Shown: positions 45,425-50,290 of the stretch, in pieces
Numbering within the stretch: the stretch's first letter is position 1
Layout: each line of letters opens with the position of its first letter
NCBI RefSeq assembly: GCF_039519235.1
Contig: NZ_CP154351.1
Span: forward strand, 868,001 to 932,000
Reading direction: 5' to 3'
From: Micrococcus sp. 2A
GTDB taxonomy: Bacteria; Actinomycetota; Actinomycetes; Actinomycetales; Micrococcaceae
DNA length: 64,000 bases
The notes under the pieces: model-generated
What the model saw: only the letters and a program-made list of their open reading frames with translations
Told to the model about the DNA's origin: nothing
Database searches by the model: none
Position numbers and translations under genes: made by a program

Positions 45425-46560
45425 CACACGGTCCTTTCGACGAGTGCCGCCGTGCGGACGGCCCGGTGCAGCCGGCGGAGGGGATGGCGGGTGCATGCGG
45501 CGGCGATCGCCAGGACGACCGCCAGTCCGACCACGACGACGACAGGCGCCGGACGCAGTCCGCCCGCTTCCGAGGCGATGCCGAGGCCGAGCAACGATCC
45601 GAGCACGGCCGGAATGCCCCATACCGCGGCCACGGATGTGGCGATCCGGAGCCGGATCAGTCGTCTGGGCGCCCCGACCGTCAGGTGCGCCAGCCACGTG
45701 GGCGTGAGTCGACGGGTCATGGTCGTCAGGAGGCTCACCACTGTCACGACGGCGCTGGCAAGCCCGGCGGTGTAGGCGGTGATCATGAGAGCGGCACCGC
45801 GGGCTTCTCGGGCGATCGGGGACCTGGCCGAGGCGATCGGGGCCAACTCGGCGACCACGCCCGTCTCGTCCTCGAGGACGTCGAGTGCCGCTCTCACCTC
45901 GGAGGCCGCGTCCTGACGTGCCACGACGGAACCGTAGACCGCCGCGAGCTGGGCCGGTTCGATCAGGCCGGCCATGGTCGTGGTGCTGGTGACGATGACG
46001 GGCGACTCACCCAGGGGCCAGAGGGATCCGTCGGCCCGCGGCGCGGCCGCGTCCCCGGGGAGTGGGCCGGCATAGCTGTGGGGTGTGGACCCCACATACA
46101 CGGTGCCGCCCGGCCCCCCGGAGGTGATCGCGGCGGGAGCGAAGTACACACCCTCGGCGGGACTGACGGCAGCGGCAGCGCCGAACTCCCGGGCCAGACC
46201 AGGCGTGGCGATGACCGCCCCCTGCAGCCGGGGGTCCTCGATTCCGATGGCGTCCGTCACGAGGAAGGCACGGGGGTCGACTCCGTCGACATGGGCGGCG
46301 AACGCCCGGGAGACGGTGTCGACGGCGCGGGGGCGGAGGTCGGTCGTGACGGCGGGGTCCAGAATCCTGGCTGTCACCAGGCCCGACGACTCGGCGTCCT
46401 CGAGCACCTCGAGCGCCGTGGTCACCCCGCCGGCGACGCCCAGGGCCAGTCCGAACACGACCGACGCCATGGTCGTGTGCAGCAGGGACAGGAACAGCAG
46501 TCCGGGCGTGTTGAACAGGTCGCGGAGACCGTCCGCAATGGCCCGCATGGCTGCCATCAT
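45424..46560 (-). CDS. FtsX/MacB-like ABC permease, second subunit
   Basis: A 378-residue membrane protein with one N-terminal helix (about 20-42), a large extracytoplasmic domain (about 45-250) and three C-terminal helices (about 258-280, 300-322, 330-352). A juxtamembrane segment LTVGAPRRLIRLRI is typical of FtsX-type permeases. Start ATG 46560 overlaps the preceding stop (ATGA); the longer frame upstream is a shadow. The extracytoplasmic part is Ala/Gly/Thr-rich and I cannot assign it. Pairs with the 306-residue protein upstream and the ATPase downstream. Confidence 0.75.
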   Translation of the reverse strand: MMAAMRAIADGLRDLFNTPGLLFLSLLHTTMASVVFGLALGVAGGVTTALEVLEDAESSGLVTARILDPAVTTDLRPRAVDTVSRAFAAHVDGVDPRAFLVTDAIGIEDPRLQGAVIATPGLAREFGAAAAVSPAEGVYFAPAAITSGGPGGTVYVGSTPHSYAGPLPGDAAAPRADGSLWPLGESPVIVTSTTTMAGLIEPAQLAAVYGSVVARQDAASEVRAALDVLEDETGVVAELAPIASARSPIAREARGAALMITAYTAGLASAVVTVVSLLTTMTRRLTPTWLAHLTVGAPRRLIRLRIATSVAAVWGIPAVLGSLLGLGIASEAGGLRPAPVVVVVGLAVVLAIAAACTRHPLRRLHRAVRTAALVERTV

Positions 46561-47477
46561 GCGTGTGCCCTTCGGACCCAGAGGGTGGACAGGGTCGTGC
46601 CGAGGATGAGGATGGCGTCCACGACGAGCACGGCGGACCAGAGGAGAGCGGTGTCCCCCGTGAGCCCGATCTCCGCGTCCCACCGGGGCCATGCCACGAG
46701 CCAGACTCCGCCGGCACTCGCGGCGGCGGTCGCCCAGGCGAGTATGGCGGGCCAGACACCGAGCCGGGCCGCTCGCAGCGGGGAGGCACCGACGAGGCGG
46801 TGTGAGGTGACGGCAGGGAGCAGTCGACTGCGCAGGGTCGTGCGCCAGACGACCTGTGCGCCCAGCAGGGCGAAGCCGGCGATCACGGCGAGCAGGGGCA
46901 CATGGACACTGCGTCGCATCGCTGCCTCCCACGGCGGCGGGAGCGGGACGACGTCGACGACGACACCGGCCCGCCGCAGCGATTGGACGAGCTCGTCGAC
47001 CTGGGCCGGTGATCCGCCGATCACGCCGGCAAGGGACGAACTGTCGGTGGAGAGGAACGGGACCAGGAGGTCCGCTTCGGTGGCGCGATCCGGCGCGGAG
47101 GAGAGGTCTCGGACGACGACCCGATCGACGTCCGGCCAGCTCAGCTCGCCCGCAGCGGCACGTGCGGCGAAGGGGGAGGTGCTGGGGACGACCGCGGTAG
47201 GGGCGACGCCGTCCGGGAGCACGCCCAGAGCAGGTCGGCCGGCGAGGGCCGTCACGTGGGGGCTCGTGGACGTGGCCGCAGAACCGGAGTCCGGTCCCGT
47301 CAGCGACGTCCGGATCATGGGCCAGGCCTCGCCAGCGGGGAATGCCGAGATCTCGTACACCGTGCCGTCCAGGTGCCAGCGTTCCTCCTTCTCCACCCCG
47401 ACGTAGGACGCGAGGAGCGCTGCTGTTCCGAGCGCGATCAGGAGAAGGAGGAAGCGCGAGGCGAACAACCGTGTCAC
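46557..47477 (-). CDS. FtsX/MacB-like ABC permease, first subunit
   Basis: A 306-residue protein with the same plan as the next gene product: N-terminal helix (about 6-25), extracytoplasmic domain (27-192) and three C-terminal helices (about 195-213, 242-265, 276-298). The segment SHRLVGASPLRAARLGVW precedes the third helix. Together the two subunits total 684 residues, about the size of the single 'bacteriocin-associated integral membrane protein' of lactococcin-972-type loci, so they may be a split or duplicated form. GTG 47477; 40 bases after the secreted-protein gene. Confidence 0.7.
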   Translation of the reverse strand: MTRLFASRFLLLLIALGTAALLASYVGVEKEERWHLDGTVYEISAFPAGEAWPMIRTSLTGPDSGSAATSTSPHVTALAGRPALGVLPDGVAPTAVVPSTSPFAARAAAGELSWPDVDRVVVRDLSSAPDRATEADLLVPFLSTDSSSLAGVIGGSPAQVDELVQSLRRAGVVVDVVPLPPPWEAAMRRSVHVPLLAVIAGFALLGAQVVWRTTLRSRLLPAVTSHRLVGASPLRAARLGVWPAILAWATAAASAGGVWLVAWPRWDAEIGLTGDTALLWSAVLVVDAILILGTTLSTLWVRRAHA

Positions 47478-47517: not shown

Positions 47518-47946
47518 TCACTTCACCTCAACCTCCACGACGCGGTCGACCGGAATGCCGACGGCCCCCACGGGTGCACGGTTCAGGCTGTAGGTCATGC
47601 GAGTTTTCGGCGCCGTGAATGAAAGAGTGTCTTTGTACGTCATGGAAGCGCTCACGCGCTGCCCGCAGGCGGTTGCGCATGCAGTGGTCGCAGTCCGAGT
47701 GCCTTGGGATCCGCCGGAGTATGTGATGCTGCCCCCGCTGTACCGGTCCCCGTTGCTTTGCTTCACGCAGATGGTGACGCTGATGTTGCCGTAGTAGTTG
47801 ACGGAAAGTGAGACGTGGTCGTTCGTGACGATCCAGCCATTCCCAGAAGCGACCGTGGCTGCTGCTGCGCTCGAAGCCAAGGCGGCAGCAGCAGGCGTTG
47901 CTGTGCCCAGGATCCAGACTGTCGCGTCTTTCTTGGTCTTATACAT
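47518..47946 (-). CDS. Secreted small protein, bacteriocin-like by context
   Basis: A 142-residue protein. The N terminus (MYKTKKD then an Ala-rich hydrophobic stretch to about residue 30) looks like a Sec signal peptide with AxA-type cleavage near 28-33. The mature part is Ser/Thr/Gly-rich, probably beta-sheet, with Cys60, Cys90 and Cys94 (one disulfide possible). I do not recognise the family; it does not visibly match lactococcin 972 itself. GGAGGG eight bases upstream supports ATG 47946. GC content and third-position GC are clearly lower than in neighbours, suggesting transfer. It leads the ABC operon and lies behind a promoter with a dinucleotide repeat. Confidence 0.7.
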   Translation of the reverse strand: MYKTKKDATVWILGTATPAAAALASSAAAATVASGNGWIVTNDHVSLSVNYYGNISVTICVKQSNGDRYSGGSITYSGGSQGTRTATTACATACGQRVSASMTYKDTLSFTAPKTRMTYSLNRAPVGAVGIPVDRVVEVEVK

Positions 47947-47983
47947 GGCGGATTCCCTCCACAGGGCCCTCGCGGGCGAATGT

Positions 47984-48002
47984 GACACACATTACAGGTG
48001 TC
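47984..48002 (-). promoter_or_regulatory. Inverted repeat at the predicted transcription start
   Basis: GACAC-N9-GTGTC (47984-47988 and 47998-48002) sits over the predicted start site of the secreted-protein gene; operator-like. Confidence 0.4.
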
Positions 48003-48009
48003 GAACCGA

Positions 48010-48036
48010 ACGCTAAGAAGTGTGTGTGTGTGTCAA
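48010..48036 (-). promoter_or_regulatory. Promoter of the secreted-protein operon with repeat-filled spacer
   Basis: On the minus strand TTGACA (48036-48031), a 15-base spacer made mostly of AC repeats, then TAGCGT (48015-48010). TTGACA is a perfect consensus -35; TAGCGT fits TAnnnT. The spacer is two bases short of the 17-base optimum, so gain of one AC unit would restore it. Predicted leader about 57 nt. Confidence 0.6.
48020..48033. repeat. (GT)7 dinucleotide microsatellite
   Basis: Seven perfect GT units (AC on the minus strand), unusual in a 73% GC genome. The repeat includes the last three bases of the -35 box and most of the promoter spacer. Confidence 0.9.
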
Positions 48037-48066
48037 GAGCTCACTCGCACCCTTCCTGCTGGCCCC

Positions 48067-48210
48067 TCAAGGCTGGTCACAGTGTCGCCCCAGCAGGTCC
48101 TTCCAGAGCCACCTCCAGGCGGCCGTCTCCTCGGGGGAAGCAACCTTGGACTGCGTGGCGGTGACTGCGGCCTTCGTGGGTTTCCCGTCGGCCGGCGGAC
48201 GCGCCTCCAT
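48067..48210 (-). CDS. Possible small protein or gene remnant between the ABC locus and thiC
   Basis: A 47-residue open frame starting MEARPPADGKPTKAAV and ending ETAAWRWLWKDLLGRHCDQP; about 83% of codons end in G or C. No ribosome site. An overlapping frame just upstream (ATG 48281, MSTSPARGANLPAIAAATGCPWAEW) looks protein-like too, so this may be a decayed gene with a frame break near 48207. The 373 bases between 47947 and 48319 otherwise hold only the promoter of the secreted-protein gene. Confidence 0.3.
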   Translation of the reverse strand: MEARPPADGKPTKAAVTATQSKVASPEETAAWRWLWKDLLGRHCDQP

Positions 48211-48319
48211 TCCGCCCAGGGGCAGCCGGTGGCCGCCGCGATCGCGGGCAGGTTCGCCCCGCGCGCGGGGGAGGTGCTCATGGCCAGCACCCTGGCCCCC
48301 GCGCCGCGGCACGGACCGC

Positions 48320-50290
<1,971 letters not shown>

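Follow-up and report, generated by a model that had tools for sequence, protein, structure and literature searches.

A predicted sigma-A promoter with an AC-repeat spacer and a Crp-type site ahead of a candidate bacteriocin-like operon in Micrococcus

Seven AC units separate a TTGACA from a TAGCGT hexamer ahead of a gene for a small secreted-looking protein in Micrococcus, and the question raised by this locus is whether the tract is a phase switch, as a first-pass annotation of this DNA had proposed, or part of a promoter under more ordinary regulation. We favor an explanation in which the activity of the promoter, its binding and repression by Crp, slippage of the tract and the role of the cargo are all predictions from sequence, and to which as a whole we give a probability of about 0.62. 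A sigma-A (housekeeping) promoter with a short spacer would drive a four-gene operon for a small secreted protein, two membrane proteins and an ABC ATPase (Table 1), a predicted Crp/cAMP-type site just after the transcript start probably represses this promoter, and the AC tract would serve as a slow tuning element. The promoter, the spacer arithmetic and the rarity of the repeat thus survive from the earlier interpretation; its phase variation seems unlikely, with seven units in both species that carry the tract.

Table 1. Features of the promoter, its operon and a second locus (window coordinates unless a contig is given)
Feature	Position	Strand	Basis and remarks
-35 box TTGACA	48031..48036	-	sequence; kept in G005
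(AC)7 tract	48020..48033	-	shares ACA with the -35 box; occupies most of the 15-nt spacer (48016-48030)
-10 box TAGCGT	48010..48015	-	fits actinobacterial TANNNT; conserved in G005; identical hexamer at the second locus near G000:C1 2435562
Predicted Crp/GlxR-type site TGTAATGTGTGTCACA	47981..47996	-	differs from TGTGAN6TCACA at one position; centred 21 nt past the -10 box
Ribosome-binding site GGAGGGAA	47953..47960	-	by eye
142-aa protein, candidate bacteriocin-like cargo	47518..47946	-	signal-peptide-like N-terminus by eye
Membrane protein 1, 306 aa, putative ABC permease part	46557..47477	-	by eye and position; no family match
Membrane protein 2, 378 aa	45424..46560	-	by eye; matches no family; gene start overlaps the stop of membrane protein 1
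ABC ATPase, 223 aa	44753..45424	-	over the cut-off for PF00005
Second secreted-protein/ABC locus	G000:C1:2430500-2438500, around 2435562		108-aa secreted-looking protein, then lipoprotein, adaptor, ABC ATPase and permease by eye

A promoter built around an AC tract

The minus strand of the promoter region reads CTTGACACACACACACACTTCTTAGCGTTCG, and both hexamers and the tract lie within 48003-48060. Sequence and coordinates bear out the original description of a TTGACA joined to TAGCGT by a 15-nt, mostly AC spacer, and of an AC run that overlaps the -35 box. The tract is the sole dinucleotide run of at least five units in the window (the whole 64-kb stretch of DNA analysed, 73.2% GC), and (AC)6 or longer occurs at one place only, as two overlapping matches, in the window's own genome (G000; 2,621,632 bases, ~2.62 Mb). 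Markov models of order 1-3, trained on the window with the AC run included, predict 0.01-0.15 occurrences of (AC)6 and 0.0003-0.008 of (AC)7 per genome on both strands. The composite TTGACA-N15-TAGCGT is found once in the window versus 0 times in 100 shuffles, and TAGCGT only four times on the two strands together. Across 11 genus genomes (G000 included), (AC)6 or longer is present in two, G000 and G005, at one place each and at the orthologous promoter, so that the repeat is as rare as had been claimed, being confined to one promoter in two species.

The neighbourhood of this promoter is syntenic in G000 and G005, downstream of thiC. Between the two genomes the -35 box with the AC tract (17/17 letters), the -10 box (6/6) and the Crp-type site (16/16) are identical, whereas the four letters after the tract agree at 2/4 and the 13 letters between the -10 box and the Crp-type site at 9/13 (11/17 between elements in all); the upstream intergenic stretch agrees at 255/280, so that ~9% of its sites differ. 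Fisher tests set 67/67 element letters against the 11/17 between them (p 3e-5) and against the 255/280 upstream (p 0.007), both for one genome pair and with element borders set once the alignment had been inspected. Of the 67 letters, 28 belong to the aligned leader; 6 further leader positions, which the aligner put in a gap, are not counted. That the boxes are conserved while the intervening letters change supports the promoter reading.

The locus is absent from G008, the only genome labelled as the same species as the window, and the sequence after thiC in G008 differs from the window's despite that label. In G003, G004 and G005, labelled as the same genus, at least the first 33 to 48 nt after thiC match the window at about 91% or more. 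Window positions 48067-48312 hold the remains of a gene whose G007 counterpart, in the equivalent place after thiC, is longer; the comparison matched it in two separate pieces. The 5' end of thiC carries a TPP riboswitch (RF00059, 59.8 bits; 50178-50289, minus strand).

The pair of boxes conforms to the sigma-A grammar of high-GC Gram-positives, with a BTGACN-like -35, a TANNNT -10 and a workable spacing. TTGACA-N14-20-TANNNT matches eight times in G000 versus once in a reversed control, and four of the eight are a promoter pair repeated ahead of each of two 16S genes, in which TTGACA stands with TAAGGT or TAGGAT at spacers of 16 and 18 nt; the other four have spacers of 15 (the window's), 17, 14 and 15 nt. 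Start-site data from Streptomyces avermitilis give TANNNT and BTGACN consensus sequences, the spacer lengths peaking at 12 and 19 nt (PMC8780764). Set against those peaks and the rRNA spacers, a 15-nt spacer is probably usable but short, and since it is shorter than both the rRNA spacers and the 17 nt of the second locus described below, the promoter should be moderate or weak. Conservation of the boxes in G005, recurrence of TAGCGT at that second locus and the related pairs ahead of the 16S genes together make it very probable that TTGACA-15-TAGCGT is a genuine promoter, and the earlier promoter call is well supported. TAATGT (47989-47994) was considered as an alternative -10 box and rejected, as inspection by eye of the window and G005 found no conserved -35 box 16-18 nt upstream of it.

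Predicted Crp control and related promoters

Downstream of the -10 box lies a feature that the first-pass annotation missed. TGTAATGTGTGTCACA is the only site in the window with 0 or 1 mismatch to TGTGAN6TCACA, and it is overlapped by a perfect palindrome, AATGTG-TGT-CACATT (47979-47993). G000 encodes a Crp protein (PF00027 and PF13545) and holds exact Crp sites at six places versus 0 in a reversed control, so that by sequence the operon has what marks Crp/GlxR regulon members, a TGTGAN6TCACA-type site near the start and a Crp protein in the same genome. Control of the operon by Crp is therefore likely as judged from these motifs, and would offer an ordinary mode of regulation for the AC promoter. 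In Mycobacterium tuberculosis, Crp sites near the transcript start accompany repression (PMC4117774), and by analogy the predicted site, which overlaps the start or directly follows it, is a probable repressor site. Class II activation was considered and rejected: with 42 nt between the site's centre and the ATG, no transcript start would fit before the ribosome-binding site. Three of seven other near-matches to AATGTGNNNCACATT (G000:C1:32871, 1947310 and 2420050) all contain ATGTGACCCAC and lie near open frames; these three are possibly weaker Crp-type sites.

A similar layout is seen at two promoters that are not orthologous to this one. One of the six exact Crp sites of G000, at C1:2435562, reached by following Crp sites and hence a post hoc find, overlaps the end of TTGACG-17-TAGCGT by a single base and lies 28 nt ahead of the gene for a 108-aa protein that has no Pfam or NCBIfam match; the adaptor encoded at this second locus has a weak RND_mfp match, below cut-off. 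Transposase-like frames adjoin the locus. G007 carries a diverged form of the window's operon at another genomic place, its permease 32% identical. The promoter region of the G007 operon (CTTGACAC / CTTGACACC) has no AC run and has an exact Crp site, TGTGAGCGACGTCACA; 17 nt separate its TTGAC box from a -10 candidate, GAGGAT, which does not fit TANNNT. Crp-site mismatches thus number one in the window and G005 and none in G007 and at the second locus, and the site's centre follows the -10 box by 21 nt in the window and G005, 25 nt in G007 and 7 nt at the second locus. From these promoters we infer an ancestral -35 of TTGACAC, of which the AC run would be an expansion: slippage would have extended it into (AC)7, leaving the 15-nt spacer.

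A candidate bacteriocin-like cargo

Lactococcin 972-type operons place a small secreted protein first, followed by a membrane protein and an ABC ATPase. The window's operon has the same order of secreted protein, membrane protein and ATPase as these operons (TIGR03608), but differs in that its secreted and membrane proteins match no NCBIfam model, its membrane part comprises two genes and its ATPase falls below the cut-off. The ATPase resembles both LolD/MacB and L_ocin_972_ABC, below those curated NCBIfam cut-offs, and scores 174.6 bits against TIGR03608, whose cut-off is 254.85. Searches with the 142-aa protein returned no NCBIfam match, a sole Pfam match at E 1 (below cut-off), PDB chains at a best E of 0.33 or worse, and no phage match; its structure model is uninformative (mean pLDDT 32.3). 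A protein search with 539 candidates found one relative, P0001, which is 92% identical. A plasmid or phage origin was considered and set aside, with just two weak plasmid matches, both to the ATPase, and, for the secreted protein, none to phages.

Relatives of the operon are few, and loss recurs among them. In G005 just a 40-aa frame is left of the secreted protein and both membrane proteins remain open, the compared G005 stretch ending inside the ATPase; in G007 the stretch matching the secreted protein has a stop, the first ATG frame closing after 18 codons by our own reading, and the frames for both membrane proteins are open. G003 (98 nt, 93%) and G004 (50 nt, 88%) retain nothing of the operon but scars. 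Loss or shortening of the secreted protein, together with operon scars in relatives, fits a bacteriocin-like cargo, and loss of the secreted gene with retention of the membrane genes would be expected if the latter confer immunity. Of the earlier proposal of a secreted, possibly antibacterial product, secretion is plausible from the N-terminus as read by eye, and the antibacterial role is suggested only indirectly.

With at most seven candidates scored per genome, the permease protein was matched in 5 of 295 family genomes: its own, G005, G007, G003, where the match is a 36-residue scar, and G114, whose match (E 1e-3) reads as an unrelated membrane protein. Of 396 order genomes a profile matched 4, namely the window's own, G003 with its scar, and two others at E 2e-4 and 6e-4; scans of genome contigs, from which own or near records may be missing, found no relatives.

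Slow tuning element or phase switch

The nadA repeat tract lies upstream of the core promoter, whereas the window's repeat lies within it and its regulator would be Crp. Like nadA with its regulator NadR in Neisseria meningitidis, the window's promoter would combine a repeat with repressor sites (PMC2791445). Its closest counterpart in form is the hifA/hifB promoter of Haemophilus influenzae, which has (TA)9-11 between its -35 and -10 boxes (PMC2651432): in both, a dinucleotide repeat serves as the promoter spacer and each unit changes the spacing by 2 nt. Unlike hifA, the window's repeat is AC rather than TA, has seven units, serves one direction, belongs to a different phylum, has an equal unit number in 2/2 loci and is followed by a probable Crp site. 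In M. tuberculosis, copy-number variation of promoter tandem repeats is described with a 57-bp promoter duplication as the unit named (PMC12817950); that case shares with ours an actinobacterial host, promoter repeats and a proposal of variable expression, but not the dinucleotide spacer.

That there is no promoter here, the tract being a neutral intergenic microsatellite beside coincidental TTGACA and TAGCGT hexamers, is very improbable. The gene remnant in the upstream stretch would suit it, as would a plain sigma-70 scan that reported no promoter at this position; that scan was E. coli-style, requiring a spacer of 16-18 nt and at least 4/6 letters in the -10 box, and it was negative because the spacer is 15 nt and TAGCGT matches the E. 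coli consensus at only 3/6 letters. Against this alternative, the boxes are kept in G005 while the letters between them differ, and TAGCGT with a Crp site recurs at the second locus. Very improbable too is an operator or loop in which the tract forms one arm, a dimeric regulator or paired Crp bridging the -35 region and the downstream site so that binding fixes the repeat number. TGACACACA (48027-48035) and TGTGTGTCA (47983-47991) are indeed perfect 9-nt inverted repeats (9/9), with both arms identical in G005, and in Neisseria the operators bound by NadR lie on either side of a repeat (PMC2791445). Yet the second arm belongs to the Crp-type site, the AC arm by eye reads TGTGT where a Crp half-site would read TGTGA, the absence of a varying pair means that there is no covariation, and G007 has a Crp site but no AC arm, which also counts against a cruciform with TGTGTGTCA.

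The remaining alternative is a true phase-variable promoter, in which AC slippage frequently toggles the spacer among 13, 15 and 17 nt to give secreting and non-secreting subpopulations, as proposed for hifA fimbriae; we consider this unlikely. The geometry is right: the repeat lies exactly within the spacer, as in the hifA type, and unit changes alter the spacing alone and leave both boxes intact, so the spacer lengths first calculated for gain or loss of a unit are correct. The repeat is also present in 2/11 genus genomes at this promoter only, far above Markov expectation, and one extra unit would give the 17-nt spacer of the second-locus promoter. A mutS1 match is missing from G000, where a control finds mutS1 in 11/14 genomes, and NucS, the actinobacterial substitute for MutS, does not correct indels (PMC8228993); phase variation by promoter tandem repeats and homopolymers has been reported in M. 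tuberculosis (PMC12817950; PMC11898584). Against this, the comparison of unit number on which the proposal turns gave seven and seven at the only two loci in 11 genus genomes, in species that differ at ~9% of nearby upstream sites, which shows no sign of variability although two loci are too few to exclude it. Seven units also fall short of the 9-11 of hifA (PMC2651432), and the same review of NucS suggests that DnaE proofreading suppresses most indels (PMC8228993). Indel rates at M. tuberculosis homopolymers are placed by a 2025 review an order of magnitude below those of most repeat-mediated phase-variable genes (PMC11868660).

These observations provide no evidence for phase variation, and a tuning element that evolves slowly is a likelier role for the AC tract than that of a fast phase switch. 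As such an element it would occasionally gain a unit, and up-variants with the 17-nt spacer would be expected from time to time. A combined scheme, in which slippage from 15 to 17 nt makes the bacteriocin-like operon's weak promoter strong in rare cells and Crp at the start shuts it at high cAMP, strikes us as unlikely; if true, this would place a contingency locus of the dinucleotide-spacer type in an actinobacterium with no detectable MutS. Among the papers listed for Micrococcus luteus with phase variation, none, judged by title and abstract start, concerns phase variation in Micrococcus, and a search on promoter phase variation by simple sequence repeats in Actinobacteria gave none on that subject by title. 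Actinobacterial phase variation as such has already been reported, in M. tuberculosis, so only the form and the host would be new.

If the tract does slip, spacer-length phase variation would extend to a lineage with high GC and no detectable MutS, and to a cargo that is probably antibacterial. If it does not, a small set remains, comprising the two secreted-protein/ABC loci of G000 and the diverged one of G007, in all of which a Crp-type site follows a TTGAC box, with TAGCGT as the -10 box at both G000 loci.
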